Below are positions 12,318 through 49,606 of a stretch of 64,000 nt of DNA, one piece after another. The translations under genes were made by a program, and so were the position numbers. The stretch covers positions 5,146,001 through 5,210,000 of the forward strand of contig CM074759.1 of NCBI GenBank assembly GCA_037355855.1, in the 5' to 3' direction. The notes under the pieces are model-generated. The model saw only the letters and a program-made list of their open reading frames with translations. It ran no database searches and was not told where the DNA came from. The stretch is from Pseudo-nitzschia pungens (taxonomy: Eukaryota > Bacillariophyta > Bacillariophyceae > Bacillariales > Bacillariaceae). Each line of letters opens with the position of its first letter. Position 1 is the first letter of the stretch.

Positions 12318-12875
12318 AAAGCTAGATACGTGATGCATATAATAATTTGAAAGTTTTACGGACGTTGCATAAGGCTTGCCCACAATTGCGGATGGGATTG
12401 TTGCCATAATATTTTAGACTCGTGCATTTCGCAATCCACTTGTGTTGGAATACGCAGGTGCGATGGGAGGCTTCAGTTACACGTTCATCTTCACCGTCAT
12501 TCTGCCATCGATGGATAGCACATATTTCATTCCAACTTATGACGCAACCGCATCTCTTTCCTAATGAGACCCGTCATGGATTCGGAGGCATGCCCATAAT
12601 AAATCATCCAAATGATCTCAAATACCATTTCCAATAGCGTTAACAAGTGTCTTCAAAGCCAATGCCATTAAGTAACGCCAGTGGGGTGTCTTTGGTGTAG
12701 TAGTATTTTCAAAAACATTACATCGACTCCGCCAGTGCTTCAACTTCGGACGAAACATGGGATTTCGATCATCAAATTACTGTACTGTAGCCTTATTGTG
12801 GAGGACAGATCACGAATTCCAGGGCTACGTGTTTCAACTATGGGTATGAATTGTATTTTAAAATCATTGTGAATC
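12318..12875. other. Gap between C2 gene and MULE; possible transporter exon remnant
   Basis: Mostly unassignable. At about 12424-12567 the plus strand reads as a short open stretch with a NPLVLEYAGAMGGFSY-type hydrophobic sequence and a stop. It follows an AG that could be a splice acceptor and looks like the C-terminal exon of a multi-pass membrane protein. No upstream exon was found. The left MULE target-site copy CATTGTGAATC lies at 12865-12875. Confidence 0.3.
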
Positions 12876-12927
12876 GGATCTATAACAGTAAATAGGACTC
12901 TACGAGTTGATTTTTACTCTATTTCGG
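12876..12927 (+). repeat. MULE left terminal inverted repeat (52 bp)
   Basis: Runs from GGATCTATAACAG to CTCTATTTCGG and is the reverse complement of 49310-49361 with one mismatch at position 5. Similarity continues weakly inward (GCGACCGGACATTTAGCATAC against GCGATCGGACATTTACGATAC), so the original inverted repeat may have been about 105 bp. Confidence 0.9.
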
Positions 12928-13319
12928 CCTAAAATTTGGCGACAATTGTAGATTTGCATGCGACCGGACATTTAGCATACCGCTCGTCCCGGGAATTACT
13001 TGCCATCAGTCGATCCTTAAGTCTTTCAACCGTCACCATCATCCGGCACGACTATTTATGTCTTTTCCCATTATGTTTTTCCATATCCTATTTTTTGCGC
13101 TCCTTTGTGTTATCTTTTATGCATAATCTTACCGGTACCGGTAAAACATTATTTTGCATCCTTTTATTTCACCATGATGATGTCTTCGGCCTATCCTTGG
13201 TCACGTGGTAAGTACAACTTCCTTTGCCTTCTCTTCCCCACGTCATGTTTACTTTTTCTCTATTCTCATATATCTTCCATCCACCAGTGTCTTTATTTGT
13301 TCAGTCTAGACGTTTGTGA
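12928..13319 (+). other. MULE left subterminal region
   Basis: Holds the inner, diverged part of the inverted repeat and probably promoter and 5' exon sequence of the SWIM gene. Three consecutive ATG codons at 13174-13182 lead to a strong donor (GTAAGT at 13208). The phase does not match the SWIM frame through any acceptor I tested, so no 5' exon is called. Confidence 0.4.
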
Positions 13320-14051
13320 CTCGCTAAGACACAGATCTTTTATATTTTACCGTATCGCGTCGACGCATCGACCTCATCGTCGTCTGTCGTTCAGATTTTG
13401 GGAACTACTGGGAACGTTTACACCGTTGTCGTCTCTTCCTCTTCCATCATCTGTTCATGTCCCGACGGTCAGTGCGGAGTTTCTCGTGTTTATACCTGTA
13501 AACACGTGTTATTTTTGCTTTCCGAGGTCGGGTTTTCTCTCTCTCCCGGAGAATTCTCTCTTTCTTCATTTACAATCTTGAATCGCCTTTCTAAATACCA
13601 TTCTCCACGAATACTCGACACCGAAACATCTACTATGTGTTTTTCCTTCCTCCGAAAGCCTTGTTCTTATTGTCAAATGACGACAATGAATTGTGCCATG
13701 TTCCTCTGTAATCACTGTTACGCTCCATTTCACCATCATCATACTTCCCTCCTAGCTTCTGTCAATTGTCCTTTTTGTGGTAGACTTTGGTCACCTATTT
13801 TTTCCGGTTGGGTTCAAAAGTATCGCAATTTATCCTCGGTTCTACTCTTTAATGGACACGGACGACGTTCTCAAGGTTCTCCCGAGTCCCTTGCAAAGTT
13901 GCCTTCGATCAAGTCTTCTGGAGACCGAACTCAAATTAAAGATTCGAACCCCCCTGAACACCACGCTCACGATCCTCCGCACGCCTTCAAAACCAAATGC
14001 CATATTGTACCACCATCACCACCCAGGGCTCTAAATGATGTCGGGCTCTAA
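13320..14051 (+). CDS. SWIM plus RING-like zinc-finger protein, 5' end unresolved
   Basis: The frame is open from 13320 to the stop at 14051 and has no ATG before the conserved part, so an upstream exon is likely; acceptors exist at 13328, 13334 and 13394. The product holds a clear SWIM finger: a GNVYTVVV strand followed by CSCPDG and YTCKHVLFLL (CxC...CxH). About 55 residues later comes a Cys/His cluster (CSYC, CNHC, a run of four His, CPFC) that resembles a RING or PHD finger. SWIM fingers are usual in MULE transposases; here the finger is on a separate gene at the opposite end from the transposase. SWIM-RING pairs occur in ubiquitin ligases, so a DNA-binding or E3 role is possible but unproven. 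Confidence 0.6.
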   Translation, partial: LAKTQIFYILPYRVDASTSSSSVVQILGTTGNVYTVVVSSSSIICSCPDGQCGVSRVYTCKHVLFLLSEVGFSLSPGEFSLSSFTILNRLSKYHSPRILDTETSTMCFSFLRKPCSYCQMTTMNCAMFLCNHCYAPFHHHHTSLLASVNCPFCGRLWSPIFSGWVQKYRNLSSVLLFNGHGRRSQGSPESLAKLPSIKSSGDRTQIKDSNPPEHHAHDPPHAFKTKCHIVPPSPPRALNDVGL

Positions 14052-14472
14052 ATGATTCCTTTCTTTTTCGTGTTAATAAATTATTTCTACTATGGTGTTC
14101 AGTTTTATTAGCTTATACCATTATTTGCTTCTCGTTTTTTTTTTGGGGGGGTGTTACGGCGTTTTGTCTTTCATGTATTCGGTCATGTATTCCGTCTTTT
14201 TTCCATGTATTCGGTTCAACAACAACGTCTGTTTCGGCATTCCCGATTTTCGCTTATAACGGTGAATATCGACGTTTATTTTCCTTCGGGTTATGTCTGG
14301 TTTTGGTATTGGTATTCTCCCCGACAATCTTTAAAGATGTTTTTCGGCTCGAATTAACGATCGTGTACTGATTCAGCCTGATCGGATTCGTTCACTGCGT
14401 CGATCGGTTTGGCAATGTCAACCTGTTTTTACCTTATTTTTAAAACAATGGTTCTTTCTACATTTTGCTCCT
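14052..14472. other. Intergenic spacer inside the MULE
   Basis: AT-rich. A possible polyadenylation signal (AATAAA, about 14075) follows the SWIM gene. The motif GGTGAATATCGACGT occurs at about 14260 and again at 14528 inside the extended reading frame of the next gene, so part of that gene's 3' end may be duplicated here. Confidence 0.5.
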
Positions 14473-16145
14473 TCATTCAATATCTCCTTTCAACTTGATC
14501 GTGAATTCCCAACTTTTCGGCGAAGGGTGAATATCGACGTGTAACTTCTTTTCGGTTTCACCATTGCTTTTCTCAGTGACAATGTTTACATAGGTTTTTT
14601 CGTTAGAATTAATGGTGAGTTGGGATTGCGACTGACCGTGGTAGTTCACCGCGTTGTTCGGGTTGGCCGCCCCCCCCCCCTGTCGCTTCCAGGGTTCTGT
14701 CCGTTCTGTTGTTCCGTTCTCTGGTTGCCATCGTTTCCTCCATAGGTACATTGGCCCCCGTTTTCTCCGTCGGTTTGGTCGTTCGATTTGTCGGTTTTCC
14801 CGTTGCCTTCGTTTTGCCCGGAAGAATTGTCGTTCAATGTGTCGGTTGTCCCGTTGTCATCGTTTTGTCCGGCAGAATCGTCGTTCAACGTGTCGGTTGT
14901 CCCGTTGTCATCGTTTTGTCCGGCAGAATCGTGGTTCAACGTGTCGGTTGTCCCGCTGTCATCGTTTTGTTCTAAGGTATATTTGTCTGCCGCTCTCTTC
15001 CGGTCGTCGTCTTGGGGGTATTGTAACGGTGTTGTTTCGTGTGTTGATTCGGATAGTTCGGATAGTTCAGCTTGAATGCCTCCCAAGGCTTGCATTACTT
15101 CTTGTGTAGGTGCCACGTGATCTTCCAAAAATTTTTTAAGCCTTTCTTCCAACCTCTTCTCTTGTCTCAACAACTTCCTATATCTCCTCTTCTGATCCTC
15201 GTCAAGCAGCATGTAGTGGTCGAATTCATCCCGGGTCAAGGTGTAGCTTCTGTATTTTTTCCCATTCTTGATTTCATACTGTTGACCCTCCGGGTCATCC
15301 TTCGGTTCATCCTTCTGTTCATCCTCCTGTTCATCCTTCTGTTCATCCTCCTTTTCAACCTCCTTTTCATCCTCCGGTTCATCCTTCGGTTCATCCCCCG
15401 GTTCATCCTCTTGTTGGGGTGGGGGCGGCTTCTTCGATTTCGGCCCTCTTTTCCTGGTCAGTGAGAAAACACAGTGAACGGGGGTTCCTTTTGTCCAAGC
15501 AGTGCAGCAATTCACACACATTCTTCCTTGACAGCGACAATTTTCTCCATAGCATAGTTCGCATTTAATTTTTTTCTCTTTGCAACGATTACAAGAATCA
15601 GCAACACGGTTCTTGATATCCGAATGACCGCCATCATTCTCAACACCGAGAACAAAAAAACACGATTGGTTTGGTAAATCGCCGGATTCCCACGATAGAC
15701 AACACGATGAGCACATTGTTCCTCTGCATCTGCTGCATTCTTCGTCTTTGGGGCACGATTGACAATCGATGGATCTGTCGTGACAATTGGTACAATGAGT
15801 GCAAACCTTCTTCTTCACATCGGAACATTTCTTGGTGGGGGACCTTGACTTGCCCTCGTCGTCTTCATCGTCTTCCTGTTCTTCTTCCTCATCATTTTCT
15901 TTCCACTCGGGATCGCTATCTCCCGTAATTCCCTCTGACCTTAATTGGCGTTCGAAATTTCGCCAATCACGTCTAAGTTTTGAAGCCATTTGTCCAAGTC
16001 GTAGTTGCTTGTTTCTTCTTTTTTGACAGTCGGTCAATTTACGTTTGGGCCCACCTCCTCCCACCTTTCTTTTGCGTTTCCGATTCGAAATCGGGGTTTT
16101 TTCACGATCGTCATCAGAACTTATTTTTGTGTCGCGATTTGCCAT
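14473..16145 (-). CDS. Cys-cluster charged protein of the MULE (499 aa to 14646, or longer)
   Basis: Unrecognised protein starting at the ATG at 16145. The N-terminus is basic (SNRKRKRK), then comes an acidic stretch (~residues 75-95). Two related Cys clusters follow at about residues 110-165 and 180-235, each with a C-RC-G-MC--CC pattern ending in a hydrophobic CxF, probably zinc-binding. A long Asp/Glu/Pro/Lys repeat (EDEPKDEPEDE-type) and a 17-residue repeat (AGQNDDNGTTDTLND) come after. The frame ends at 14646, just past an 11-C run (14670-14680). In the neighbouring frame coding continues to 14473, so the run may be a sequencing slip or a real frameshift. It is divergent from the gene starting at 16699. 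Confidence 0.6.
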
Positions 16146-16698: not shown

Positions 16699-17763
16699 AT
16701 GAAGTTTCCTGCCGACAGTTTCGATTTTTTCTGTGATAACTCCAATGATGGTTCTCGTCAGTTGAATTGCAATCGCGATGAAGAAAATGGTGTCTCAATT
16801 GTTTGATATTTCACAGACTTCTCTGATTTCGAAACTGACACCATCCGACTCTCAGAGACAGATGGTCTATGCTTGACGGAAAACAAATTGTGGTATATTT
16901 ATGCGGATGATGATATTGCATTTCACAGAGTGCTTGAAAAAGTTACGATATGTCGTCTTCATATCACTGAGTCTCAACTATTGACAGCCCTTCCTATCAT
17001 TTTGTCGGAAAATTTCCAGCCAACATACTCCATTGGAAAAACTGACCTAATGACTGAAAGATGTTTGTCCGTCGGTCATTTGGTTGTGTATCGTGACTAT
17101 GTCTGGAACGTGAGCAATCGAAATTCTTTTACCGACGTGGAAGACTACGACCGGATCCGAAAAAAGATTCATCCGAAAACCATTAGCTCAGGTACGTCCG
17201 GTTTTTCGCTATTCTACGATTTGTCCGCAGTTCAACTTGGTTTCAAGAGGGCAGCAAAGGTTGAGCCAGCTGCGACACAGCGACCCAGTCGTACGTTCAA
17301 AGTTGACGTCGAGTTTCTTCGAAGCTTTTCTACAATTTCTCCCTTTTGGCCTCGCATACGACAACAATTATTGGCGATTGCGACTGAAATCGGGTGGACC
17401 AATTTTTACCCAACAAGCAAGGAAAAAATCGATAAAAGCATTGCTTTAGAAAAGGACAAGGATTTCTTCTCTAAGGTTCTTCCTAAAGCACGTCGTGAAT
17501 GTTGTCATTGTAACCAAGATTATTGTGTGTGGGCGTTGAACGGAAAAAATTTTTTGTCAGCGGTCGCGCGGGAGAGTAAGGGAGAAATACAAAAGAAGAA
17601 ACAGTTCGCACGTAATCTGGCGAATTACGCAATACTGGTATTTGGACAGGAGTGCGGGCAACCAAAACCTCCTTTCTGTGTTGATGCCGGATTAGATATA
17701 GAGTTTGGTGGCAGTTCGCCACCGGAACAACCTAACCGCAAACGCAGAACCCTTGATATATGA
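16699..17763 (+). CDS. Unrecognised MULE protein with CCHC-type Cys motif, possible 27-nt intron
   Basis: Open from 16807 to 17763 but without an ATG near its start. Starting at the ATG at 16699 and removing a GT-AG segment of only 27 nt (16790-16816) gives a continuous 345-residue protein whose junction reads DEEN/DFSDFETD. The first ~60 residues are acidic. Near residue 275 there is a motif CCHCNQDYCVW that may bind metal. The tail is basic (NRKRRTLD). No family is recognised. It faces away from the Cys-cluster gene and is followed by a minisatellite. The intron is inferred; if it is not spliced, the start is unknown. Confidence 0.5.
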
Positions 17764-17767
17764 ATTA

Positions 17768-18172
17768 TTAGATTAAATTACCGATCTTGTGCAATTTTTG
17801 ATTCACGATAGGATTAAATGACCGATCCCGTGCAATTTTTGATTCATGATAGGAATATACGATGGGTTAATGTTTGATTGCAATTTTTGATTCACGATAG
17901 GATTAAATTACCGATCTTGTGCAATTTTTGATTCATGATAGGATTAAATGACCGATCCCGTGCAATTTTTGATTCACGATAGGATTAAATTACCGATCTT
18001 GTGCATTACCGATCTTGTGCAATTTTTGATTCATGATAGGATTAAATGACCGATCCCGTGCAATTTTTGATTCACGATAGGATTAAATTACCGATCTTGT
18101 GCAATTTTTGATTCATGATAGGATTAAATGACCGATCCCGTGCAATTTTTGATTCACGATAGGATTAAAACT
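17768..18172 (+). repeat. 41-bp minisatellite, about 9-10 units
   Basis: Two alternating versions of one 41-bp unit: GATTAAATTACCGATCTTGT... and GATTAAATGACCGATCCCGT..., each ending in GCAATTTTTGATTCA(C/T)GATAG. The alternation suggests that an 82-bp dimer is the amplified unit. One unit near 18003 is duplicated internally. It sits between two MULE genes. Confidence 0.9.
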
Positions 18173-18236: not shown

Positions 18237-18806
18237 ATGATGGATGATAATAATGATGTCGTTGATGGGATGTCAACTCCAATCTCTTTGCCAAAAAAGG
18301 ATAACATTCCTAAAGAATCCGAAAAAGAAAGAACAATCGTTGAGTCAAAAGATAAAGAAAGAAAAGTTAAAATATATGTTGATTCGGATGAGCGAATCGA
18401 AGAGAGAATTAACATAAACAACACGTGGAATGATGCGTTACGTAGAGAGAGAATCAAGCAAGAGAAAATTGATACCGTGCAAAAATGGAAGGATATATTC
18501 AACCGAAACCCATCTACTAATTTAACCGTGACTAAATCAAATACAACTATTGTTAAGTCACATGTTCGCAGGAGGAATTCTGTGGTTAAGTCTCATATTC
18601 GGAGAACGACAAAAGGAACTAGAAAACTACCACCCAATGTACGTCCGTATATGGACCCTGCATCATTCTCGGAAATATTGAAAGTACGTGACCGTGACAT
18701 AGCAATCGCCACCCAAAAATCAAGGAATGACCCGAGAATAATTGAAAGTTCTACGAAATGGAAATTATTCTGGAAACAACACAGCAGGAAAAAACCACCT
18801 AAATGA
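18237..18806 (+). CDS. Basic MULE-encoded protein, unrecognised (189 aa)
   Basis: Starts at the in-frame ATG at 18237 (MMDDNND). Highly charged and Lys/Arg-rich, with no membrane segment. The central part contains TWNDALRRERIKQEKID, probably helical, and there are two copies of a VKSH-RR motif (VKSHVRRRNS, VKSHIRRTTK). The C-terminal half is predicted to be basic and could bind nucleic acid (inference). It converges on the minus-strand gene ending at 18914, 107 bp away. Confidence 0.45.
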   Translation: MMDDNNDVVDGMSTPISLPKKDNIPKESEKERTIVESKDKERKVKIYVDSDERIEERININNTWNDALRRERIKQEKIDTVQKWKDIFNRNPSTNLTVTKSNTTIVKSHVRRRNSVVKSHIRRTTKGTRKLPPNVRPYMDPASFSEILKVRDRDIAIATQKSRNDPRIIESSTKWKLFWKQHSRKKPPK

Positions 18807-18913: not shown

Positions 18914-19618
18914 TTACTTGTAATCGTAGATTAGATCGCATTTTACCTTCTTCGTTCTCCGTGACCTACGTATCGACATGGATGATTGGTCGGATATATT
19001 TTGTGCGGGTTTGACACTTGGTTGCCCTTGTTTTTTCCTTTTCCTTCCGCCCCTATTTGATTTATCCCCTGCTTTGCTTCTTGTTTGAATCGGAGATTTT
19101 CGCCTTGATTTGATTTCTGTTTCAATCGGTGATTTTGTCACTAAATCGGGCAACAACGTACTATCAGAGCAGGAGGATGCTGATTGCTTTCGTCTTCTAA
19201 TCAGTGGTGATTTAAGTAGATCCGTCAAACATCGATTGTCTCCTGATTCGGAGGAGTCTGATTGTTCCAATTTTTCGGGTGTATCTATTATCGGAACCTC
19301 GATTAACAAGTCGTCTTTACCTTTGGATTTATCTGGTTGTACTTCCAGTGTCTGTTTTGTTTCTTTCTGATTGATGGGTGTCTGGTGGCAATCTTCTCCG
19401 TCATTTACCGGTTGGAACGACCCTTCGTATTGCTCTCCCTGGTCCTGTTTGTCGTTACTGTTTTTCTGTTTCTTTTTTTCTGTTTTGTGTCCAATGTCGT
19501 GACCGACCTTATATTGATATAAGTCATGTTTTAACTGTGTCGCGAGTTCCATAAAGTTAGTCCGAAAACTTTCTATCGATTCCCGATCTAATTCTGGAAG
19601 GCTAAATGACAGGAACAT
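18914..19618 (-). CDS. Charged MULE-encoded protein with basic tail, unrecognised (234 aa)
   Basis: Starts at the ATG at 19618 (MFLSFSLPELDRESI). The first ~45 residues look like an ordered helical segment. The rest is low-complexity, rich in Lys, Gln, Ser and Asp, with KSPI repeats (KSPIETEIKS, KSPIQTRSK) and a basic end (SIRRSRRTKKVK). No family is recognised. It has the same orientation as the protease and transposase genes to its right, separated by the repeat cluster at 19740-20500. Confidence 0.45.
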   Translation of the reverse strand: MFLSFSLPELDRESIESFRTNFMELATQLKHDLYQYKVGHDIGHKTEKKKQKNSNDKQDQGEQYEGSFQPVNDGEDCHQTPINQKETKQTLEVQPDKSKGKDDLLIEVPIIDTPEKLEQSDSSESGDNRCLTDLLKSPLIRRRKQSASSCSDSTLLPDLVTKSPIETEIKSRRKSPIQTRSKAGDKSNRGGRKRKKQGQPSVKPAQNISDQSSMSIRRSRRTKKVKCDLIYDYK

Positions 19619-19739
19619 GGTTGATTTTTTGGAAAAAAAATTACTTCGTAGATACAAGTATTTTAAATTCTTCGATCATCCCAAAAATCGCGCACGATTT
19701 CCGCGCGCGACGAAAATTTGAAAATAAAAATTAAATTCT

Positions 19740-20500
19740 CGAAACCCCCTGCGACACCAGTCGACACCAGTCGACACCAGTCGACACCAGTTGACACCAG
19801 TCGACACCAGTTGACACCAGTAGACACCAGTAGACACCAGTAGACACCAGTAAACACCAGTAGACACCAGTACCGGTAGACACCAGCCGACACCGGTGTT
19901 TGCATGTTCGTATGTTCATACGTTGGTATGTTCGTCTGTTCGTATGATTGTATGTTCATCTGTTCATCTGTTAACACCAGTCTTCATACTTCATACGTTC
20001 ATCTGTTCATACGTTGGTATGTTCGTCTGTTCGTACGATTTATGTTCGTCTGCTCGTCTGCTCGTATGCTCGTCTGTTCATACGTTGGTACGTTCGTCTG
20101 TTCGTAGACCTTATGCTTGTCTGTTCGTATGCTTGTCTGTTCGTATGCTCGTATGTTCTTCTGTTCGTTTGTTCGTTTGTTCGTTTGTTCGTCTGTTCAT
20201 CTGTTCATACGATTGTACAGAAGAACAGACGAACATAAGACGAACAGACGAACATACAATCATATGAATAAACAATTATACCAACGTATGAATAGACGAA
20301 CGTATGAACATCATACGAATAAACGATTGTACCAACATATGAATAGACGAACATACTGCTTGTACATTCGTATGTTCGTCATGACACCAGACGACACCAG
20401 TCGACACCAGTTGACACCAGTTGACACCAGTCGACACCAGTCAACACCAGTCGACACCAGTCGACACCAGTCGACACCAGTCGACACCAGTTTGGGTACT
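19740..20500. repeat. 10-bp satellite blocks around a large imperfect palindrome
   Basis: Two arrays of a ~10-bp unit GACACCAGT(C/T), about 14 copies at 19752-19885 and about 12 at 20382-20490, lie in the same orientation. Between them is a region of TTCGTATG/TTCGTCTG tetranucleotide-like repeats (about 19905-20215), followed by its complement (ACGAACATA/ACAGACGAAC, 20217-20365). It can therefore fold back into a long hairpin. The satellite produces open frames in several phases, which I treat as artefacts. Confidence 0.85.
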
Positions 20501-20615
20501 CCGGGAAATTATTTTTAAAAAAATAATTTCTCAAATCGCGCATGGGGCGCGATTCTCATATTTTTAGCGAGGGGGGGAGGACCGGGAATTTCAAAATTCC
20601 TTCAAAAACTAAAAA

Positions 20616-23426: not shown

Positions 23427-23540
23427 AATGGAACCTCGTCGAAAATCTCTGTTTTTAATGCCAGCGGGCTAATGTACTTTCGAAGTAAGATCGAAACAGG
23501 AAGACTCATACAATAAATTTTCTTCGAAATCTTCTCAAAT

Positions 23541-39114: not shown

Positions 39115-39307
39115 ACCGGATTAGTATTGTGGAAACGGAACAATAATTTCGGGAGAACAGAAACAATGTAAAAAAATAATTGAAAACGTATTAAAATGGA
39201 AAATGCCGACATAACTGAACCAAAAAAATGATGTCATAACGGAAGAAACAAAAAATTAACGTGTACAAAAAATTACTATGATTCGGCGATACATGAAATG
39301 TTTCAGT
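39115..39307 (-). promoter_or_regulatory. MULE transposase upstream region, left of copia-A
   Basis: AT-rich leader between the transposase ATG and the copia-A LTR. Together with 49110-49309 it forms the ~445-bp promoter-side end of the MULE that copia-A interrupts. No motif is assigned. Confidence 0.5.
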
Positions 39308-40163
39308 TGCGTTGATATTGCTCGTCAGCAAATAAAATAGGGAAAGCCCTAACAATAATACCACATAAGGTCCTGACAAATAGTGAGACTACAGTGGATA
39401 CTGTTCAAGCTCTATTGCATACACTGATTTACTACAAGGTACTTCCCTAGAGGTGCATCGGAATCATCGTAAGGGGAGGGCATGATAGGTGTTTATTTTA
39501 GAGTGGAAAAGAAAGAGTGAAAGTATAGTGGATGGAGCTGAGCGCTCAGCTCAGCTCTGTATCGTAGCGTGACAGCGCTTCGCTAACTCGTACAGCGTAC
39601 AGCGTACAGCCCTGTAGGCTTAGTACTGTATTCTATGGAGTAGCGTTAGCGCTTAATTAATATCCAATCGTGTGCTAGCGCTAACTCGCTTGCTGGCTTG
39701 CTCGTGTGCTAACTTGAAAACTGTCTGGGTTAGGTATCCGGTCATAGTACATATTGTACACCAATGACCTCACCCCGGCGGTAGCATAGAGGGTAGCATG
39801 CTAGGGTAGCATGGTAGGTTAGCATATCCAGTATCTCGTAGCATTAGCAACCCTAACCTTGTAGGTTCATGCTACACCCTGTGCTAGTGTCGGTGCTATA
39901 CCCGGGGTATGTACAACTGGTACAAATCCTACTCGAGGACCCAGGTATCTTGGATTTAGCACCCCATACCATATAGGGTAAGCCTGTTGCTAAGCCTGTT
40001 GCTAAGCCTGTTGCTAAGCCTGTTGCTAGGTGCTTATGCTAGATATTAGCACACAGCTCAGCTCCTTGTAGTTAGTTACTGGGTGCTGGCACATGTAGCT
40101 CCAGTACACTTCTCTACACAGGAGCCCTAGCACCACAGCCTGTAGCATCATCTTGAATCAACA
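39308..40163 (-). repeat. Copia-A 3' LTR (856 bp)
   Basis: Element-sense ends are TGTTGATTCAAG and CAATATCAACGCA. It has four copies of the 12-bp AGCAACAGGCTT repeat; the 5' LTR has five. Confidence 0.93.
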
Positions 40164-40639
40164 TAGTCCCCGTGATTCATGCTAGTGGTCCTGTATTGAG
40201 CAAACACATTGGTCCCCGGAAACTGATACTCCCAGGGGGACACCAACATGAGAGCTTGCTGTAACAGAGCACTTGCATGGATCATAACAGAATTCAGGGA
40301 TGCTTCCGTGTAACTTGTCAGAGATCAAACTGCATCAAATATTGCAGTTCTTCTATCAGAGGCCCGGCTGATTTGGTTAAAAGAAAAAAAAAAAGGGGGG
40401 GTGAACCGTCGGACGTTTTGCCCTTAGTTCCGAGCCGAAGGACGCGTTGCCCCTTGGTTCAACTCCTTGACACGTACAAGGAAATCAATCAGCCTATTGT
40501 AATTCAAATCTATAGTCCCCGGAACCGATGTACCCGGAGACTCCCGAACATGTACCATCGTACATACGAAAATATATCATCTGCTTCCAAACTGCTTGTC
40601 AGGGACCAAAGGTACCCCAAATATTGCAGCTAACAGCTT
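40164..40639 (-). other. Copia-A 3' untranslated region
   Basis: Sequence between the pol stop and the 3' LTR. It holds two diverged copies of a ~45-bp block starting (G/A)GTCCCCGGAA (about 40211 and 40516 on the plus strand) and an A12/G8 homopolymer pair (40381-40400). A short purine run (CACGGGGAC in element sense) next to the LTR may be the polypurine tract. Confidence 0.6.
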
Positions 40640-43600
40640 CTACCACATGCAGCGCTCGCAGTGGCTCTTCAACATGGGACCATTGAGCAACTTGGTGAAT
40701 AGATCTGCAATATTGCTCTCACCTGGTTCCTTTGCGACACGGATTGTTCCAGCAGCAATAGCCTCCCGGGCTTTGTGGTAGGCAACGCTGTTATGCTTCT
40801 TGTTGCATGGGCTCTCCAGTCTGGTAACATTCTTAACAACTGATTCATTGTCACAGAATACATTCGTGGATCCTGCAATGGGCACGCCTAACATCCGGAG
40901 CTTGTACCTAAGCCCCTCAATCATCTCAACAGCAATGCGCATTGCCACGATCTCAGAGCCAAAGGTAGAAGTCTCCACTGTAGTTTGCCTCTTGCTGAGC
41001 CAAAGAATGGGGGCATTGTTCAAGAAAATAATGATTCCAGTATGCGAGCGTCTCGTTGCCTTACAACCAGCATGGTCAGCATCAACGAAACAGCTCATGA
41101 TAACAGCCTTGCCTAATGCCTCTGGAGCATCCGGTGGGATAACTTCCTTGGCATCTGGATAGAACTCACTCCAGTCACACTGAGTGAAGCTGGGTTCATC
41201 CACATCGGGGATCATATCATCAAACACCAGCCTGGACCTGCTGTGGTTCTTGATGTAAGCAAACATATGGAATAACTGATTCAAGTGGCCGGCCCTTGCC
41301 TGAGCCAAATACCTTGACATGAGGGACACAGGCGTTACCAAATCCAGCCTTCCAAGCTCACAAAGCCATCTGAGAACTCCGATAAGGCCCTGGTAGTAGT
41401 TCTGCATCTGAGGATCCAGCTCCTGGGTCAAATCAACCTCAGGCCTGTATTCAGACGTCAGGGGAGTGGTCACCTTCTTTGGAAGATACTTGTATCCGTA
41501 TTTCTCAGTTCCTAGCTCCTGCTCCACTGCATCCACAGCCTTCTTTGCATACTTCTCGGAGGACATAGCCCACTTAGGGATAGGGTCACCCTCAATCTTG
41601 TACTCGCTGATGTCAGCGCCAAGATACAGCTTTGGGACTTCTATAGTACCATCCTTGAGTGTAAACCGTTGTTCTATACTCTCCAGTTGGCGCCTTGGAT
41701 CTTCACTGCAGCAGACAATATCATCCACATAAGCAATTAGATATGCCCAGTATCTGGTCCCATCCTTCTTGGTCTCAACTCGCATATGGACGTCAGGGTC
41801 TGCCTTACATGGTTGGTACCCCAGCTCTCTTAGATGCTTAGTTAGATAGGATCTAAATGAAGCGCCTGCAACTGGCAAACCATACAGAGCCCTTACAATC
41901 TTGCAGACTTGTCCAACCAAATGGGGAGGGAATCCATCTTCTGCGCGCGCCACCAAATAGTACTTCTTCTTGATAGGTGCTGTGAGGTAGGCATTCTGAA
42001 TATCAGCAGATAGTACATCCAATCCATTCAGGGCTGCCAGCAGGAAGAATATGCGGACAGAATCTCTGCTCGGTACACTGCTAAAGGTATGTTCCTTAGC
42101 TGTGGCTTGTACCTTGTGTCCATCTGCGACGAGCCTTGCTTTCCTTGTAAGGGATCCCAACTTTACGTCAAATATCATGTGGGTTGTAATCTTGCTGAAT
42201 CCTTCAGCCTTGAGCCCATCCACTGTGTAACTGGGATCAAACTCAAACGCCATCTCGTTGTTCTTCATCTCCTTTGCAATTGCCTTTTGCCAATAGTCTG
42301 TACCAGTCTTCTTGTCAATAGCAAGGGCTTCGGGAATAGAATGTGGCAGTTCCACACCATATTTATGTGTGCGGTCCCAATACTTGTTGGATTTCTTGGT
42401 GGCCTTGAGGAGTCTTCTTTTCCTTCGGAGTACATGGTGCACCCACCATTTGAAAGCTGGTTCGTCTGCAATCTGGTTATCAACAGCATACTGCGCAGCC
42501 TCAACAGGAAAGGACTCCTTGATATCACCTAACTTGCACCAGGATTCAGTCCCATCCTTCCAACTGACCAGGAGCCTCCACCCCTTGGTTGTAACAGGAC
42601 GGACCTTCTTGGACTTGGTGCTGGATTTGGCAGCTTGTTCTTTGGTAACTGCCGTCTCATCCTTTTCGTGGTCAATGATCTCATCTAGTAGAGTGAACAT
42701 TCGGCCCTCGTCATCAACTGAACTGTACATGTTCTCAGCAACGATGTTTGCAGTATACTGCTCCACCGTACCATCAGGGAGCTGCAAATCGTACATCCTG
42801 GTATCAAGGATAGGGTTATTATTCCTTATGCCCAACGGATTGCCATCCAGATCAGTAGTTCTTGCTTTGACGGTGCACTTGAGCCGTTCGTCTCCCTTCT
42901 GGATCATAACCTTGTTTCCAATGTACTCATCATAGGTATTTCCATCGGGTACAAGCTCATCCACGTCTGGAATAGAGGCCTCCGGTTCTGCCATGGTCTT
43001 GGTGTCATCGTCTGGCCACCTATCCTGGTGGTTCTCAAATAGTTCCTCTGGAGGTTGGGGATACACGTCTTGAAACTGAACATCCGTGTTCTCAAGCTTG
43101 TCCCCGATCTTGGATTCAACTGCTTGGTCAAATGAGTCCATTGCCCTTTTGACGTCATGAGCTCTCCACTCTGCTTCGGTGACAGCTCTAACAGTGTTAG
43201 TGCTTACTGGAAGCGCAGATTCGGCAAGGATCCAGTGGCAGTCACCACCTCCAAACATCCTCCCACACGGACCAAGCCAACGCCCGAGCTTCTCTGTACC
43301 ATCAGACAGGTCAGTCCAATAGACAAAATCATACCACTCGTGTGCTTGGTACAGGGAGATGTCCGGCATGTACCCATGTACTAACTCAAAGGGAGTTCTT
43401 TCCATGCATGCCGCATCGCTGGATACAGTCCTCTGCCTGATTGCTGCAACAAGCTCACCACAGAATGCCCACAGACGCTTGGGGGATTTCTTCCTTGCAG
43501 TCTTCTTCCGGATGCTTCTGCTGAGGTGCCCTATGCTCAGTTCTGCTCTGTTCTGGAATGGACAGTGTGGTTGGATGAACGTTTGATGGATATTGTTCTT

Positions 43601-45370
43601 TCTGATTACAGCATTCCAAGGGGTCTTGTAGGTGCCTACAGCTCCTTGCTCCTTGGCGCCATCAGATATCAAGTGCTCTGGGATACCAACCTCATGGATA
43701 AAGATCTTCAGGCCATCAGCAGCTTGCTTCTTGCTGTGGATTGGGATGAATTCCTCATAGCCCTTACCATTGCTGAACACTTGCGCTGCCTTGTCTTGCC
43801 TCATAATGCTTGGTACCTTTGCGTGCCAGGTATCAGTCCCCCACTTGCCTGCTGCCACTCTCTTGTTCCGGAAGCTCTGGGTTGGAAGCCTTCTAACAAG
43901 GGGATGCTGGGGGTTCCTAAATCCTTTCTGTGTAGTCACCCTCAGAGTTGCTCTTGCCTTCCTTTCAGATATGTCCCATATCTTGGAGAGCCTGTCCGAA
44001 TCAATCTTGCTGTACCTGTCGGTGTCAATCGATGGTCCCCATTGCTTTCGTCTCTCAATCATATCAGTTTCAGGATCAGGAATTGGCTCTTCCAAATCTG
44101 CCCAAGCAATTTGCTTGTCCCTGTACACTGCAGATAGTGCAACCGGTGCGTCCCTAACATTGGGATCCAGTTCAAATCTATCCAGGCCATCAGTGTAGGC
44201 AGGCTCATACAGTGGTGTATGAAGGGCATTTATTGTCAGGCTTGGCTTCCGTTCCTTGTCCTTGTCCCCGCAAGTCTGCAATGAATCATCTTCATCATCG
44301 GAAACAACTTGGGGATCTGAATAAATCGATGAAAGTCTTGTATGGAGCCGGTCATCTGAAGCAATGGAACATGGGGTCAGGTCTCGTGTACACAGCTGCT
44401 GAAGGTGTCGGAGCTTGTATTTAGAATACTGGTCTCTGGAAGGGAGCATTTCATCCGGCTTGAGCTTCTTCTTGGAGTACAGGTTTGGTTTAAAGTTGTT
44501 CCTGTGCTTGGGGGGCTCTAGGCTTGTGCAATCGGACATGGGAAGATTCGATCGTGTCCGGGCAGGGGTCTCAATCGGTGGTTCGATTCCTGCTTCGATC
44601 GTAGGCACGTTCTCGTGTGGTGCAGGGGTCTCAATCGGATGTCCGATTCCTGCTGTAGGCACAGTGCCTGTCGGGGTATTAACCCTTGCCTGTTGTTGCT
44701 GCTGTTGGTGTACGGCAGAAACAAATTTGGAAGGATCAGGGGAATAGGGATGTGATTGGTCAATTGCTGCTTCTGCTTGTTGGAATTTGGAACTATTTGG
44801 CTCCCAGGGTTCATTCCTCGTAGCAATTACATGGTCACATGTCTCCATCTCGTGTTTCGTGGGACGCCTGGAGGGGAAGTAGGATACAACACCATTAAGC
44901 AGAAGCTTAATATCCAGCGTCGGAGCCTCCTCTTCTCCATCAGCAGCATGCTCAATATGGATTGAGTGGGATGACTTGGAATTGTATTGTCTGGGCGTCT
45001 CGTCCACACGATTGTGACCACAATCCCTAATTTGATTGGGGCAAATCAAGCTGTGCTGTAGCCTGTCCCCAAAGTACAATGTTTCATGGAAATAAATCAA
45101 CCAAACCTTTCCCACTGGATCTGTGTAAGCAGTGACGCATGTCCCTATAGGAATGTTCTTCACTGGTTCATATTCTGGAGAGAAGGGATGAACATCCACA
45201 TGGGAGGTAACTTGGTCTTCCAAAAGGATCATGTTGCAACCAGCAGCCGTAGTATCTGCATGACTGTCCAACTCACAGTTGCTCTCTGCAGGCCTTGCAG
45301 ATCTTGCTGGTACATCCATCCGGTACACCAGCCGGCCCACCTTACTCAATTTCAGGCCCCGGCTGGGGAG
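40640..45370 (-). CDS. Copia-A Pol: protease, integrase, RT, RNase H
   Basis: In the same frame as gag, directly after the gag UGA (45371-45373). There is no ATG until the eleventh codon after the TTG at 45349, so expression by UGA readthrough is likely. The protease motif is LDSHADTTAAG (~residue 27, counting from 45349). Integrase has AAQVFSNGKGYEEF, SDGAKEQ (~563) and NRAELS (~603). RT has LVADGHKV, SADIQNAYL and AYVDDIVCC (~1208). RNase H has FVDADHAG (~1420), SEIVAMR and FCDNESV. The frame is intact to SHCERCMW and all catalytic motifs are present, so it is potentially active. The domain order defines Ty1/copia, and the DSHAD protease is seen in diatom CoDi elements. Confidence 0.93.
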   Translation of the reverse strand, partial: LPSRGLKLSKVGRLVYRMDVPARSARPAESNCELDSHADTTAAGCNMILLEDQVTSHVDVHPFSPEYEPVKNIPIGTCVTAYTDPVGKVWLIYFHETLYFGDRLQHSLICPNQIRDCGHNRVDETPRQYNSKSSHSIHIEHAADGEEEAPTLDIKLLLNGVVSYFPSRRPTKHEMETCDHVIATRNEPWEPNSSKFQQAEAAIDQSHPYSPDPSKFVSAVHQQQQQQARVNTPTGTVPTAGIGHPIETPAPHENVPTIEAGIEPPIETPARTRSNLPMSDCTSLEPPKHRNNFKPNLYSKKKLKPDEMLPSRDQYSKYKLRHLQQLCTRDLTPCSIASDDRLHTRLSSIYSDPQVVSDDEDDSLQTCGDKDKERKPSLTINALHTPLYEPAYTDGLDRFELDPNVRDAPVALSAVYRDKQIAWADLEEPIPDPETDMIERRKQWGPSIDTDRYSKIDSDRLSKIWDISERKARATLRVTTQKGFRNPQHPLVRRLPTQSFRNKRVAAGKWGTDTWHAKVPSIMRQDKAAQVFSNGKGYEEFIPIHSKKQAADGLKIFIHEVGIPEHLISDGAKEQGAVGTYKTPWNAVIRKNNIHQTFIQPHCPFQNRAELSIGHLSRSIRKKTARKKSPKRLWAFCGELVAAIRQRTVSSDAACMERTPFELVHGYMPDISLYQAHEWYDFVYWTDLSDGTEKLGRWLGPCGRMFGGGDCHWILAESALPVSTNTVRAVTEAEWRAHDVKRAMDSFDQAVESKIGDKLENTDVQFQDVYPQPPEELFENHQDRWPDDDTKTMAEPEASIPDVDELVPDGNTYDEYIGNKVMIQKGDERLKCTVKARTTDLDGNPLGIRNNNPILDTRMYDLQLPDGTVEQYTANIVAENMYSSVDDEGRMFTLLDEIIDHEKDETAVTKEQAAKSSTKSKKVRPVTTKGWRLLVSWKDGTESWCKLGDIKESFPVEAAQYAVDNQIADEPAFKWWVHHVLRRKRRLLKATKKSNKYWDRTHKYGVELPHSIPEALAIDKKTGTDYWQKAIAKEMKNNEMAFEFDPSYTVDGLKAEGFSKITTHMIFDVKLGSLTRKARLVADGHKVQATAKEHTFSSVPSRDSVRIFFLLAALNGLDVLSADIQNAYLTAPIKKKYYLVARAEDGFPPHLVGQVCKIVRALYGLPVAGASFRSYLTKHLRELGYQPCKADPDVHMRVETKKDGTRYWAYLIAYVDDIVCCSEDPRRQLESIEQRFTLKDGTIEVPKLYLGADISEYKIEGDPIPKWAMSSEKYAKKAVDAVEQELGTEKYGYKYLPKKVTTPLTSEYRPEVDLTQELDPQMQNYYQGLIGVLRWLCELGRLDLVTPVSLMSRYLAQARAGHLNQLFHMFAYIKNHSRSRLVFDDMIPDVDEPSFTQCDWSEFYPDAKEVIPPDAPEALGKAVIMSCFVDADHAGCKATRRSHTGIIIFLNNAPILWLSKRQTTVETSTFGSEIVAMRIAVEMIEGLRYKLRMLGVPIAGSTNVFCDNESVVKNVTRLESPCNKKHNSVAYHKAREAIAAGTIRVAKEPGESNIADLFTKLLNGPMLKSHCERCMW

Positions 45371-47356
45371 TCAATCCTTGTTCTGGGCGTTGCCATTGCC
45401 CTTGTTCTTGCCCTTTTTGCCCTTCTTCCGTCCCTTCGCGCCGAAATTGTTGCCCGCGCCACTTGCCTGTTGGGGGGACGGTGCTGATTTAGTCTCTGCG
45501 GCTTGGACGCTACGGGCCTGGGCCTTCTTTCGACGGAGCTCCTTTAGCTTTTCCCGCTGTTCAGCGGAGAAAGTCCTGTAGACGGAGGGGGGGTAGTTCT
45601 TGGCTTCAATCGTACCAGAGTAGGTGCCTTCAACCGACTTGGATTTCTTGTTCCCGTTCCCGCCTCCATTCCCGCCTCCACTGGCTACAAAAGCTGAGAC
45701 GGATCGACCGCGCTTGTTCGTATGATGGAGGTTCATGATACCAAGATTTTCAGTGAACATCGCAACCAAATCCCTGAAATTTGTCATGTACTTCATCTTC
45801 TCTCCCATGGCGATGGATTTGGCATGATTCAGATGGTCGTCTTGGACAGATCTGAAGAAATCCAATATGAAGCGTTTGTCGTCTCTCTCTGGGTCGTGAC
45901 CGCCGTAGTTGATAAGGGTCGTACGGAACTTCATCCAACTTCGACAGTGGGTCTCAAAATCATACTGACGGGAGTCGCCTGTGTACTTGGAGTCCGCAAT
46001 GGCTTTGATGGTCTTGCTGACAATCGCATCGACGTTCGTCTCCGTGAAGGCATGGTCGTAGATATGAAGGTATGCTGCTCGAGCATCGCCTCGTGTCTCA
46101 TCCCGCTGGTATGTGAAGGTTCGGATGTACTCCCAGCCTGGACCGCCTCGTACAGCAGCACAAAGCAACGTCCATACGGCTTGGTTATCCTCTTCGAACT
46201 GTTCGCCTTCAAGCACCGCACATCGTAGATTGTATTCCGTCCAGTTGGAGAAGCCGTCTTTGCCACCAATTCGACGAGATCGATCATCCGTAGTCACCTC
46301 GGCCTCGTCCTTCGAGCGAATCACATACAGTAGGGGAAATCCATGCTTGTTAAAACGATTGCGGAGGTCTTGGCGAAATGCTCGATCCCATTCAGCAAAC
46401 TTGGGAAGGGTCGTCAAAGAAGGTGGTGGAGTTGTCACAGGGGTTGCTTCTCTCTGCGCCTTCGTCGCCACAAGTCGCTTCTCCGTCTGGTCATAAGCAT
46501 TCCGTTGTTCAAGCCACTTCCTAGCAGAAGGTCGGACACCACCAATGAGGGGTTGGTAGCGGATCCACTCAGCAAATACCAACAGCTTCTGGATAAGGGA
46601 GTCGCTGATGTAGACCGCCGTAGGGTCAGGACAAGCAGGGTGCCTGTAGGAGGCAAGGTTCCTGGAGAATCTGGAGATACGCTCTGGGGTAAGCCGTCGC
46701 ACAGAATCAATCGTGGATAGATCAGATCGGAATAGCTCGTCCGCCGTGGCTTCATTGCAGAAAGATTCGTAGATCTCGATGAGGTCTTTCTCCCGATCGG
46801 TGAGTTTCTTGCCATCGTTGTAACCATAGATGCCTCCTCTCGCATGAGCAGCCTTGTTGGCAGCATCAAGGTCCTCCTTGTCCTTCAAGGTACCAAAGTT
46901 CTTGTCCATCCGGTCCTGTAGGACTTGAAGTTGCTTGACAACCATAGTCATTGCAGTGTCTGTCTGGTTGCGCGGCCGAATGGTAAAGTCATCCTCTGCA
47001 CGGACCCTAGATCCTGATGCCCCGGTGTTGCCGCCGGCTCCGGTGTTGCCGCCGGCTCCGGTGTTGCCGCCGGCCCCGGTGTTGGTTCTGGCTGCAACGT
47101 TGGCACTCCTCTTGTTGCGTGGCAACCCCCTTTGTCTAAGCTTCCTCTTCTGTCCTTGCCCTACAGGGTCCTCCTCCTCCTCTTCCTTCTCGTCCTCTTC
47201 CTCCTCGTCTTCCTCGTCCTCAGGATCAGTGATCTCCTCATCGTCCGGTCGATCCATAGGGGGGTCTCCATCCGGGGGCCCCTCCTCCTGGGTTTCAAGG
47301 TTCGTAGGATCCTTGGAAGACTCCTTGGGTGGTTGGTTTTCGGTAGGGGTGATCAT
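45371..47356 (-). CDS. Copia-A Gag (661 aa)
   Basis: Starts at the ATG at 47356. The N-terminal ~100 residues are acidic (long Glu/Asp run). Then comes a four-fold GAGGNT repeat from an 18-bp DNA repeat (about 47025-47090). The capsid region resembles the other two copia Gags. A Gly/Asn linker precedes a Lys/Gly-rich tail (GRKKGKKGKNKG) that could bind RNA in place of a CCHC knuckle, which is not seen. It ends QNKD-UGA, with CTC as the next codon. Confidence 0.9.
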   Translation of the reverse strand: MITPTENQPPKESSKDPTNLETQEEGPPDGDPPMDRPDDEEITDPEDEEDEEEEDEKEEEEEDPVGQGQKRKLRQRGLPRNKRSANVAARTNTGAGGNTGAGGNTGAGGNTGASGSRVRAEDDFTIRPRNQTDTAMTMVVKQLQVLQDRMDKNFGTLKDKEDLDAANKAAHARGGIYGYNDGKKLTDREKDLIEIYESFCNEATADELFRSDLSTIDSVRRLTPERISRFSRNLASYRHPACPDPTAVYISDSLIQKLLVFAEWIRYQPLIGGVRPSARKWLEQRNAYDQTEKRLVATKAQREATPVTTPPPSLTTLPKFAEWDRAFRQDLRNRFNKHGFPLLYVIRSKDEAEVTTDDRSRRIGGKDGFSNWTEYNLRCAVLEGEQFEEDNQAVWTLLCAAVRGGPGWEYIRTFTYQRDETRGDARAAYLHIYDHAFTETNVDAIVSKTIKAIADSKYTGDSRQYDFETHCRSWMKFRTTLINYGGHDPERDDKRFILDFFRSVQDDHLNHAKSIAMGEKMKYMTNFRDLVAMFTENLGIMNLHHTNKRGRSVSAFVASGGGNGGGNGNKKSKSVEGTYSGTIEAKNYPPSVYRTFSAEQREKLKELRRKKAQARSVQAAETKSAPSPQQASGAGNNFGAKGRKKGKKGKNKGNGNAQNKD

Positions 47357-48225
47357 TGTTGTTTTGGTTAGGTTTTAGATGACTTCTCGTTGGATGTTTG
47401 CTTCGCAATTCGGTCCCTTTTTTTCAAAGGATGGCAAATTCATTGCTCGTTCCAAGTTAGTTTCTTGCTTGGAATAATTTCTGTGGTCAGTTGGAATGGC
47501 TCCTGTACTGACTGGGTGTTACTGTAACATAGTGTTGACGATTGCGAGGATACCCCTCGATGACGTTGCTTGATTTGGTTCTCCGGTTCAAGGTACAATC
47601 CTTTTCTGTGGATCTTCAACCCAATCTAATCTTCAATTAATTGGATGTTCAACCCACGGGATCAGTCATTTGGCTGCAATCCACTACCAGTAACTGGATG
47701 TTCAACGTGTTGAAGGCTCGGTCCACGAGTCTTTCGTCTCATCCTGGACACTTGTAACGTACTGAAGGTTCCAGTTGGAGGTCCCGTATGGATCCTTTCG
47801 TTAAGTCCTTTTCTTGCTCAATCGGTCCCTTTTGCTTCCGGGCTAAGACTTGGTGGAGCCACCACCCTGCTCTGTTTCGTAGGCCTAGTGTGAGCCGTCC
47901 TAAAGGCATAGGACTCTAGGCCCCGGTATCCAGCAAAAGGGAGCCCCGTTTACATCACTGTAGATCTTCTTTCGTCCGCTTCGAACCTGCCGTTCGTATC
48001 GTACTATCGTATCGTATCCGCGTCCGACGTCCGAAGGATCCACTGGGGCATGGTGATGCCAGCTCCTCGTACTGTAGGCCTGGAGCTGAGTTTTACATCC
48101 AGCAGATGGTTCTTTTACATCCAAGTGTAGGCATGGATGCCAGCAGGGATCAGTTGCTGGGTTTCTTCAGGGCTCTAGCCGGCGTCCCGGCGTCGTAGCG
48201 TGGCGAGTCCCTGGGTCTGATAAAC
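47357..48225 (-). other. Copia-A untranslated leader
   Basis: In element sense begins with the primer-binding candidate GTTTATCAGACCCA at the LTR edge. It is similar in sequence to the copia-1 leader (1846-2665). No gene is seen. Confidence 0.7.
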
Positions 48226-49109
48226 TGCGTTGATATTGCTCGTCAGCAAATAAAATAGGGAAAGCCCTAACAATAATACCACATAAGGTCCTGACAAATA
48301 GTGAGACTACAGTGGATACTGTTCAAGCTCTATTGCATACACTGATTTACTACAAGGTACTTCCCTAGAGGTGCATCGGAATCATCGTAAGGGGGGGGCA
48401 TGATAGGTGTTTATTTTAGAGTGGAAAAGAAAGAGTGAAAGTATAGTGGATGGAGCTGAGCGCTCAGCTCAGCTCTGTATCGTAGCGTGACAGCGCTTCG
48501 CTAACTCGTACAGCGTACAGCGTACAGCCCTGTAGGCTTAGTACTGTATTCTACGGAGTAGCGTAGCGCACGGAGTAGCGTTGCGCTTAATTAATATCCA
48601 ACTGTGTGCTAGCGCTAACACGCTTGCTGGCTTGCTCGTGTGCTAACTTGAAAACTGTCTGGGCCAGGTATCCGGTCATAGTACATATTGTACACCAATG
48701 ACCTCACCCCGGCGGTAGCATAGAGGGTAGCATGCTAGGGTAGCATGGTAGGTTAGCATATCCAGTATCTCGTAGCATTAGCAACCCTAACCTTGTAGGT
48801 TCATGCTACACCCTGTGCTAGTGTCGGTGCTATACCCGGGGTATGTACAACTGGTACAAATCCTACTCGAGGACCCAGGTATCTTGGATTTAGCACCCCA
48901 TACCATATAGGGTAAGCCTGTTGCTAAGCCTGTTGCTAAGCCTGTTGCTAAGCCTGTTGCTAAGCCTGTTGCTAGGTGCTTATGCTAGATATTAGCACAC
49001 AGCTCAGCTCCTTGTAGTTAGTTACTGGGTGCTGGCACATGTAGCTCCAGTACACTTCTCTACACAGGAGCCCTAGCACCACAGCCTGTAGCATCATCTT
49101 GAATCAACA
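48226..49109 (-). repeat. Copia-A 5' LTR (884 bp)
   Basis: Matches 39308-40163 apart from one extra 12-bp repeat unit and a 16-bp local duplication (GTAGCGCACGGA region near 48553), plus scattered substitutions. Confidence 0.93.
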
Positions 49110-49309
49110 TACAGTTAGGATTCACACATAACATGGCGGAATATATGCCAAAGGACCGATGCAAAGTATAACATGAAAACAAGAAAGCGATGTTGTCGGA
49201 TACAAAGTGAAAGTGATCACGGTTGAGCGGGAAAATGTTCGATACCAAGAAACGTAGTATCGTAAATGTCCGATCGCTAGTACGATTTATTTAACCGTTG
49301 CAAGATTGA
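49110..49309. other. MULE right subterminal region
   Basis: Unique MULE sequence between copia-A and the right inverted repeat; probably transposase promoter. Its inner-repeat part (about 49262-49309) is weakly inverted to 12928-12980. Confidence 0.6.
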
Positions 49310-49361
49310 CCGAAATAGAGTAAAAATCAACTCGTAGAGTCCTATTTACTGTTATAAATCC
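49310..49361 (-). repeat. MULE right terminal inverted repeat (52 bp)
   Basis: Reverse complement of 12876-12927 with one mismatch; followed directly by the TSD copy CATTGTGAATC (49362-49372). Confidence 0.9.
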
Positions 49362-49606
49362 CATTGTGAATCTGGCCTCCTGTTGACTCAACTTGAAGGA
49401 CGCGACGAGCGCCGGTGGTTTTCGGGTAGAATGGAGACGTTAAAAGTACGATGGGCATATTTGGTGCAGTATTCGCGAAGATGGTCTCGGTGCATGGCAT
49501 TGTTGATTATTGTTCGTGTGGCAAAACACAGAGCCCGAATGCCAGCGTTGGTATAATATTAGTCTAAATTTTACTTTTGATGAATTATATACCCGCATTT
49601 CTTGAT

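Follow-up and report, generated by a model that had tools for sequence, protein, structure and literature searches.

The window analysed here, a stretch of 64,000 nucleotides from the diatom Pseudo-nitzschia pungens (contig CM074759.1), very probably contains a dead copy of a large DNA transposon of the autonomous Mutator-like type (Mutator-like element, MULE), which is riddled with retroelements, carries five genes and measures about 15 kb without its inserts. Between its two terminal inverted repeats (TIRs) the genes follow one another in the order SWIM-RING gene, double-Cys-cluster gene (opposite strand), gene A, a spacer with a repeat array, gene B and a giant transposase-C48 gene (opposite strand). 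The same five genes are present in this order and orientation in nine copies of three diverged subfamilies (window, C2b, C3a, C3b, C6, C11b, C12, C10 and C11a). All genomic comparisons refer to the 66.9-Mb, 28-contig assembly that contains the window, which was searched with the TIR and with the proteins; repeat counts are lower bounds. The assembly contains 72 rows of the light-harvesting family. Of two such proteins compared with PDB structures, one has the diatom proteins FCPI-7 (6ly5) and Lhcr11 (6l4u) as best matches (E about 1e-82), which by itself makes a diatom host likely; the matches of the other do not clearly favor diatoms.

Element ends and sister copies

The left TIR (12876-12927, forward strand) and the right TIR (49310-49361, reverse strand) are 52 bp long and differ at a single position (51/52); 47 bp of them form an uninterrupted exact inverted match. 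They are directly flanked by the 11-bp target-site duplication (TSD) CATTGTGAATC at 12865-12875 and 49362-49372 (both forward strand), and a scan of both strands located this sequence nowhere else in the window. A preceding sequence-only reading had proposed these repeats, the identical flank and a multi-gene MULE of about 15 kb that is split by two nested retroelements. The repeats and the flank are confirmed, and sister copies with TSDs of their own lend strong support to the third proposal. The net length amounts to 36486-11636-9808 = 15042 bp. As a control, ten shuffles of the window in two-base blocks gave a longest exact inverted match of 20 bp. The window contains 70 inverted pairs of at least 40 nt with lengths of up to 815 nt, and most of the long ones join retroelement-like stretches. 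Since long inverted repeats are thus common here, the length of the TIR alone is little proof, and the weight of the end assignment lies on the 11-bp TSD and the sister copies.

The genome search with the 52-bp repeat, which the sequence-only reading had suggested as a check, revealed further copies. Six of them are full-length and span 15.1-15.7 kb from repeat to repeat, namely C12:562126-577750 (15,625 bp), C10:823110-838840 (15,731 bp), C3a:5525652-5540901 (15,250 bp), C3b:1845344-1861011 (15,668 bp), C11b:1184581-1200159 (15,579 bp) and C6:3224294-3239405 (15,112 bp); C12, which was read whole, contains neither of the two retroelements. Three copies deviate in length: C2b:5044320-5065502 (21,183 bp) is enlarged by about 6 kb in the interval from the Cys-cluster gene to gene A, C11a:476128-488914 (12,787 bp) is shorter with a partly missing giant gene, and C7:3734722-3743626 (8,905 bp) lacks gene B, part of gene A and the remainder of the giant gene. 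Moreover, six short copies that share these ends and have TSDs of 10-11 bp are located on C4 (1,045 bp), C5 (981 bp), C8 (1,090 bp), C1 (1,083 bp), C2 (1,093 bp) and C10 (1,768 bp), five of which are known by their ends only. At least 40 TIR matches were recorded (40 of the 47 candidates scored), many of them in inverted pairs about 1 kb apart. Two wider inverted TIR pairs, C3:5862029-5874109 and C2:6205005-6211898, are 12.1 and 6.9 kb apart without any accessory-gene row between them; they are possibly short copies with other inserts or with other cargo.

Perfect TSDs were observed at 16 of 16 sites, which had been picked where both ends could be located. Their length is 11 bp at six sites (window, C11a, C4, C2b, C8m and C1m), 10 bp at nine (C12, C10, C3a, C3b, C11b, C5m, C2m, C10m and C7) and 8 bp at C6. 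Between the copies C11a and C12, identity reaches 99.4% and 99.9% in the two longest blocks and 98.3% in the third, and the 12 flanks of six sites show zero similarity to one another. This near-identity at unrelated sites points to a recent movement of the element. The right part of the window, from 43211 to at least 53360, is furthermore 99.6% identical to C8:2607886-2618000 (L010/L011), a place at which no left half of the element was detected. The duplicate covers the right TIR and its flank, part of the nested Copia-like element and the open reading frames (ORFs) 49607-50209 and 50339-52102, and it represents a recent segmental duplication or rearrangement.

The five genes, the iteron array and a second family

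The sequence-only reading had listed a transposase, a C48 protease, a SWIM-RING protein, a double-Cys-cluster protein and three charged proteins, i.e., a transposase and at least six further genes. Our comparison with C12, whose giant gene is a single frame of 2,751 aa from the first ATG, shows a different composition. Three ORFs of the window are colinear on the C12 protein, with 35173-39114 corresponding to residues 30-1395, 20616-23189 to residues 1499-2340 and 18914-19618 to residues 2381-2751. On the reverse strand of the window, the N-terminal part with the MULE-type transposase thus occupies 35175-39114 and continues beyond the nested LINE at 23288-23545 (residues 1394-1489), which is followed by a frame change. 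The C48/Ulp1-like part with its conserved H, D, Q and C lies at 20616-23189 and the charged C-terminal tail, which is 26-28% identical to C12, at 18914-19618; between them the window copy harbors minisatellite tracts (19713-20538, no strand assigned). The tail ORF also falls within the frame of about 2,770 codons of the C3-type copies (45-51% identity), and in seven sister copies the matches to transposase and C48 lie within one open frame of 2,770-2,806 codons. The transposase, C48 and 18914-19618 ORFs are hence pieces of one gene, predicted to encode a giant protein of about 2,750 aa in the unbroken sister copies, and the element has five genes in all. SWIM-RING, double-Cys-cluster, A and B remain of the earlier cargo list, from which C48 and one of the charged proteins pass to the giant gene. 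The database proteins P0001 (2,152 aa) and P0002 (2,284 aa) each match the transposase as well as the C48 part, and the fusion thus seems not to be confined to the genome of P. pungens.

The active site of C48 (Ulp1-type) peptidases consists of H, D, Q and C. H, Q and C are present in six of six aligned rows and D in five, with N in P0002. Matches to the Pfam family PF02902 (C48) exceed the cut-off for C12 (E 5.6e-6) and P0002, miss it narrowly for P0001 and fall short of it for the window copy, and the comparison with the structure of yeast Ulp1 (1euv) gave an E value of 1.8e-7. A candidate for a second, dead C48 copy ahead of the C48 part, with DSG for the expected DCG, was rejected in a profile comparison (probability 0.2, E 0.34). 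Eight more C48-like places on C5, C6, C8 and C2 (L034-L041) are 27-28% identical to the C48 part of the element; they fall into two same-scoring sets of three and five and are probably cargo of other repeated elements.

The four accessory genes are located in the left part of the element. The SWIM-RING gene (13257-14039, forward strand), recognized by tblastn, encodes a CxC...CxH motif followed by a RING-like Cys cluster and has one in-frame stop; it is 66% identical to a 292-aa open frame of C12, whose protein matches the Pfam family SWIM weakly and below the cut-off (E 0.0066). The double-Cys-cluster protein (14646-16145, reverse strand) comprises 499 aa with a repetitive acidic C-terminal part. 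Gene A (16699-17763, forward strand) encodes about 350 aa and contains one stop, the ORF at 17050 being its downstream part, and gene B (18237-18806, forward strand) encodes a basic, unrecognised protein of 189 aa. Three of the five genes, namely the giant gene, SWIM-RING and gene A, are broken in the window, and judged by its sequence this copy is dead.

The spacer between the genes A and B contains an array of iterons (17779-18159, forward strand), i.e., nine copies of a 30-bp motif of about GTCCGATCCTGTGCAATTTTTGATTCACGA that are 41-57 bp, mostly 41 bp, apart. The motif is repeated in the A-B spacer of all three subfamilies, with 11 mostly 41-bp-spaced iterons in C3a, and 42-bp units were detected in the C12 spacer by TRF (Tandem Repeats Finder). 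Four of four iteron hits across the whole C12 element lie in this spacer (mean of 0.1-0.3 hits in ten simple shuffles), and no hit falls in the parts of the window beyond the element. A genome-wide search with at most two mismatches yielded 57 matches, all of them in the A-B spacers of six copies with 8-11 per copy, and the reversed pattern gave zero matches in the whole genome. The underlying consensus was built from the window and the C3 copies; the genome pattern misses the C12-type form, so that the C12 group stands outside the 57 matches. The array is, by its distribution in the assembly, specific to the element.

A second, distant family with transposases that are about 38% identical is present on C8, C1 and C7. 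Its representative on C8 (about 2789627-2800382) carries a TIR that is approximately 202 bp long and whose outermost bases match poorly, and the end is fixed by the 11-bp TSD GAGAGCTCGGG. It harbors a SWIM-RING gene (30% identity, E 4e-25 in a single comparison) and, on the opposite strand, a protein with two Zn2-Cys6 stretches (PF00172 above the cut-off) and repeats. The transposase lies on the same strand as the latter, and the layout of RING, Cys-cluster and transposase genes is that of the window family. The spacer adjoining the Cys-cluster gene contains an array of its own with four 30-bp units. The homology of the Cys-cluster proteins across both families appears positional rather than proven. 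The approximately 41-bp array as part of the element, the short copies and the second family all go beyond the sequence-only reading.

The strongest rival explanation, which we nevertheless regard as very improbable, regards the accessory genes as host genes or random fragments that were captured once and travel as passengers in the style of Pack-MULEs. In plants, MULEs commonly capture fragments of host genes (PMC6446971, PMC13317346), and a search of 5.8 billion proteins provided zero homologues of the double-Cys-cluster protein at E<=0.001 among 6903 candidates. However, all ten gene-A rows and all nine gene-B rows of the genome lie inside the ten listed copies, and only two of the 12 Cys-cluster rows lie outside, both at a single C12 location next to a partial match to the TIR; the cargo thus does not resemble host genes. 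Nine of the 19 RING rows are found outside the listed copies. Four of these are degenerate matches located on C12 and C1, and one belongs to the C8 element of the second family; C3 contributes two rows at 6.575 Mb and one at 3.956 Mb, and a last, unassigned row lies at C2:2.246 Mb. The co-occurrence of the five genes in three diverged subfamilies likewise argues against a single capture, and the pairing of RING and transposase recurs in the second family. Gene A moreover has homologues of similar length (P0004 and P0005, 337 aa, 37-38% identity) that are absent from the P. pungens gene-A rows. Between subfamilies, the ratio of nonsynonymous to synonymous substitution rates (dN/dS) is well below 1 for the four genes included, with 0.16-0.28 for gene A, 0.19-0.41 for gene B, 0.22-0.46 for the N-terminal part of the Cys-cluster gene and 0.24-0.28 for the C48 part (SWIM-RING was left out), in pairs that are not independent of each other. 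Near-identical pairs within subfamilies range from 0.05 to 0.89 with very few changes. These ratios are indicative of purifying selection on the four genes tested. With respect to a viral origin, none of the IMG/VR pattern matches was confirmed as a relative, be it of the transposase (0 of 39), gene A (0 of 35) or gene B (0 of 125).

Class membership, comparison with known systems and proposed mode of action

MULEs have TSDs of 8-11 bp, and some of them lack TIRs (PMC6446971). Here we found 52-bp TIRs in the window and its sisters, TSDs of 8-11 bp at every site and the invariant residues D257, D320 and E525 in the transposase. These three residues and a CxxH at 344-347 are conserved across four aligned rows, and we take D257, D320 and E525 to be the DDE triad from their motif context. 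The MULE transposase family PF10551 is matched with E values of 0.0015-0.019 in four of the five region-bearing proteins scanned (window, C12, P0001 and P0003), always at the same place, and the match covers profile positions 8-97 of 99 in the window, C12 and P0001. The MULE-like transposase that the sequence-only reading had placed near one end is a part of the giant gene and carries this match at sub-threshold strength. Taken together, TSDs, TIRs and DDE motifs very probably identify the element as a MULE.

Slightly less probable still than gene capture is the assignment of the transposase to another superfamily, i.e., KDZ/Zisupton, CACTA/Plavaka or a Polinton-like group. The sub-threshold PF10551 match would permit it; C48/Ulp1 domains have also been reported in CACTA (PMC2528002) and Crypton (PMC3212892) elements and KDZ elements may carry extra genes (PMC12730594). 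The near-complete coverage of the PF10551 profile speaks against it, as do the TSDs of 10-11 bp at 15 of 16 sites and 8 bp at one, compared with 8 bp in Zisupton and Dileera, 7 bp in Kyakuja and 3 bp in EnSpm (PMC12730594). Pfam scans at E<=1 recovered no KDZ, PolB or integrase families. Polinton/Maverick elements are characterized by a protein-primed DNA polymerase and a retroviral-type integrase, and neither was matched in Pfam among the element proteins scanned. That the span 12865-49372 arose as a chimera of the assembly or joins two unrelated ends by chance, as the many other inverted repeats and the rearranged or duplicated right half without its left counterpart on C8 might suggest, is extremely improbable given the same 11-bp duplication at both ends, the colinearity with C12 of all stretches between the ends other than the two retroelements and a left flank that is unique in the assembly.

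Several observations weigh against the interpretation as a five-gene MULE. None of the proteins scanned has a PF10551 match that reaches the Pfam cut-off (27.6 bits), and for P0002 the Pfam scan lists no such match. The AlphaFold models of the N-terminal 804 aa of the transposase (four rows, mean predicted local distance difference test score [pLDDT] of 45.6) and of gene A (P0004, three rows, mean pLDDT of 33.7) are too poor to use, and the core of the window Cys-cluster protein matches zero Pfam families at E<=10. C12 and C11a were read whole and the other sisters are known from ends, partial loci and search rows, the TSD of C6 has 8 bp only, and the search for an empty site, a further check named by the sequence-only reading, came back empty for the window copy, as its 600-bp left flank matched only itself within the assembly. 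Many of the dS values behind the selection analysis approach or exceed 1, and a decaying copy is the source of the window rows. The C12 iterons comprise four diverged copies at 21/30 or better with irregular spacing. In the second family, genome searches with A and B detected neither gene nearby, its 316-aa ORF has no counterpart in gene B, and its Zn2-Cys6 protein is only weakly similar to the window Cys-cluster core (BLASTP E 0.085).

Among the tabulated MULE groups of PMC6446971 that were included in the comparison, all those for which an ORF number is given have one or two ORFs. Mutator-like elements have likewise been reported from diatoms, namely MULE-Diatoms (group 37; PMC6446971) and TpMuDR1 (PMC2806351). 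Group 37 is recorded with one ORF, TIRs of 123-124 bp and “No TSD and not indicated”; by description alone, the five genes, 52-bp TIRs and 8-11-bp TSDs set the present element apart. The closest parallel is provided by the VANDAL MULEs with VANA, VANB and VANC, in which VANC binds short motifs in the tandem repeats of its own element and has variable tandem-repeat regions (PMC5735166), and by the Ulp1-carrying VANC (KIU) genes of Kaonashi MULEs in plants (PMC13317346). The shared features comprise several genes, an Ulp1/C48 domain, short tandem motifs in non-coding parts and the variable tandem-repeat region of one of the proteins (PMC13317346, PMC5735166). In contrast, our element has TIRs, TSDs of 8-11 bp and five genes, and its C48 domain and transposase share one open frame. 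The VANC domains DUF1985 and DUF287 appeared neither in Pfam scans at E<=1 nor for the Cys-cluster core at E<=10, and a membership in VANDAL thus fails because of their absence from these scans and the fusion of C48 to the transposase.

Other systems resemble the element in single aspects. Abermu of barley is a MULE with more than one ORF, one of them in opposite orientation, but it has three ORFs and its abstract mentions no C48 fusion (PMC9168764). The Ghost MULE of aphids harbors a separate RING ORF beside the transposase, but it is described with two ORFs only and without identified TIRs or TSDs (PMC6446971). KDZ and other DNA transposons of fungi carry TET/JBP genes as chromatin-modifying cargo, proposed to escape silencing, but differ in transposases and TSDs and encode a dioxygenase instead of C48 and RING (PMC12730594). 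The oomycete elements CryptonF and CryptonS are transposons of stramenopiles that encode a C48/Ulp1-type peptidase, but they are tyrosine recombinase and not DDE elements (PMC3212892). C48 domains are accordingly on record for MULE (PMC13317346), CACTA (PMC2528002) and Crypton (PMC3212892) elements. No multi-gene element of the present kind is described in the listed open-access titles and beginnings of abstracts, a scope that excludes subscription papers and Repbase, and the five-gene element with its transposase-C48 fusion appears to be new among MULEs. It keeps five genes together within 15 kb, including a domain that resembles proteases of the small ubiquitin-like modifier (SUMO) in the frame of the transposase.

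The ends and duplications, the co-occurrence of the five genes, the near-identical copies, the selection and the A-B array are directly legible in the DNA, and the mode of action can be outlined in conditional terms. The giant protein would bind the TIRs and cut and paste the element, and staggered cuts of 10-11 bp in the target would be made during insertion. The Cys-cluster protein might bind repeated DNA, for instance the iterons, and the C48 and RING proteins might alter SUMO or ubiquitin marks at the element, with less silencing or a tuned transposition as the conceivable outcome. The working of this set would be similar to, yet distinct from, the VANC system of VANDAL MULEs. A more far-reaching proposal, which we put forward tentatively and consider rather unlikely, is an element-borne, addressable anti-silencing system, in which the zinc-cluster protein sits on the iterons while the C48 fusion and SWIM-RING rewrite SUMO and ubiquitin marks, thereby enabling expression and movement. 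It would represent an independent analogue of VANC/KIU in a MULE lineage with a conserved core of RING, zinc-cluster and transposase genes. The near-identical copies at unrelated sites and the seven unbroken giant frames make the element a tractable system for studying the roles of accessory genes, with the iteron array as a concrete DNA target for testing. It also bears on the questions whether transposons in general target the control by SUMO and how a diatom host silences DNA transposons.

Nested retroelements and surroundings of the element

Two retroelements interrupt the window copy. The first is a long interspersed nuclear element (LINE; 23556-35174, forward strand) with an RVT_1 domain and endonuclease-, RNase H- and zf-RVT-like matches below the cut-off. 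It is flanked by the 17-bp direct repeats ATCCATCGTTTACGCTT at 23539-23555 and 35175-35191, which represent its TSD. The second is a Copia-like long terminal repeat (LTR) retrotransposon (39309-49111, reverse strand) with an RVT_2 domain, whose LTRs are 96% identical over 886 columns with seven mismatches and 28 gap columns. An automated longest-match search for its TSD yielded 8 bp that do not lie at the borders of the element. The 5-bp TSD CAGTT (39304-39308 and 49112-49116) was read by eye and is backed by a C3 sibling sequence (L056), which is uninterrupted at that point.

The surroundings were surveyed by eye. Further LTR-retroelement-like ORFs and repeats flank the element at 1-11000 and 57000-64000 of the window. 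An 81-nt repeat with four diverged copies that resemble a PAS-type motif is located at 52186-53823, and the ORF at 55117-56478 (reverse strand) looks similar to a protein of the actin-fragmin-kinase type.

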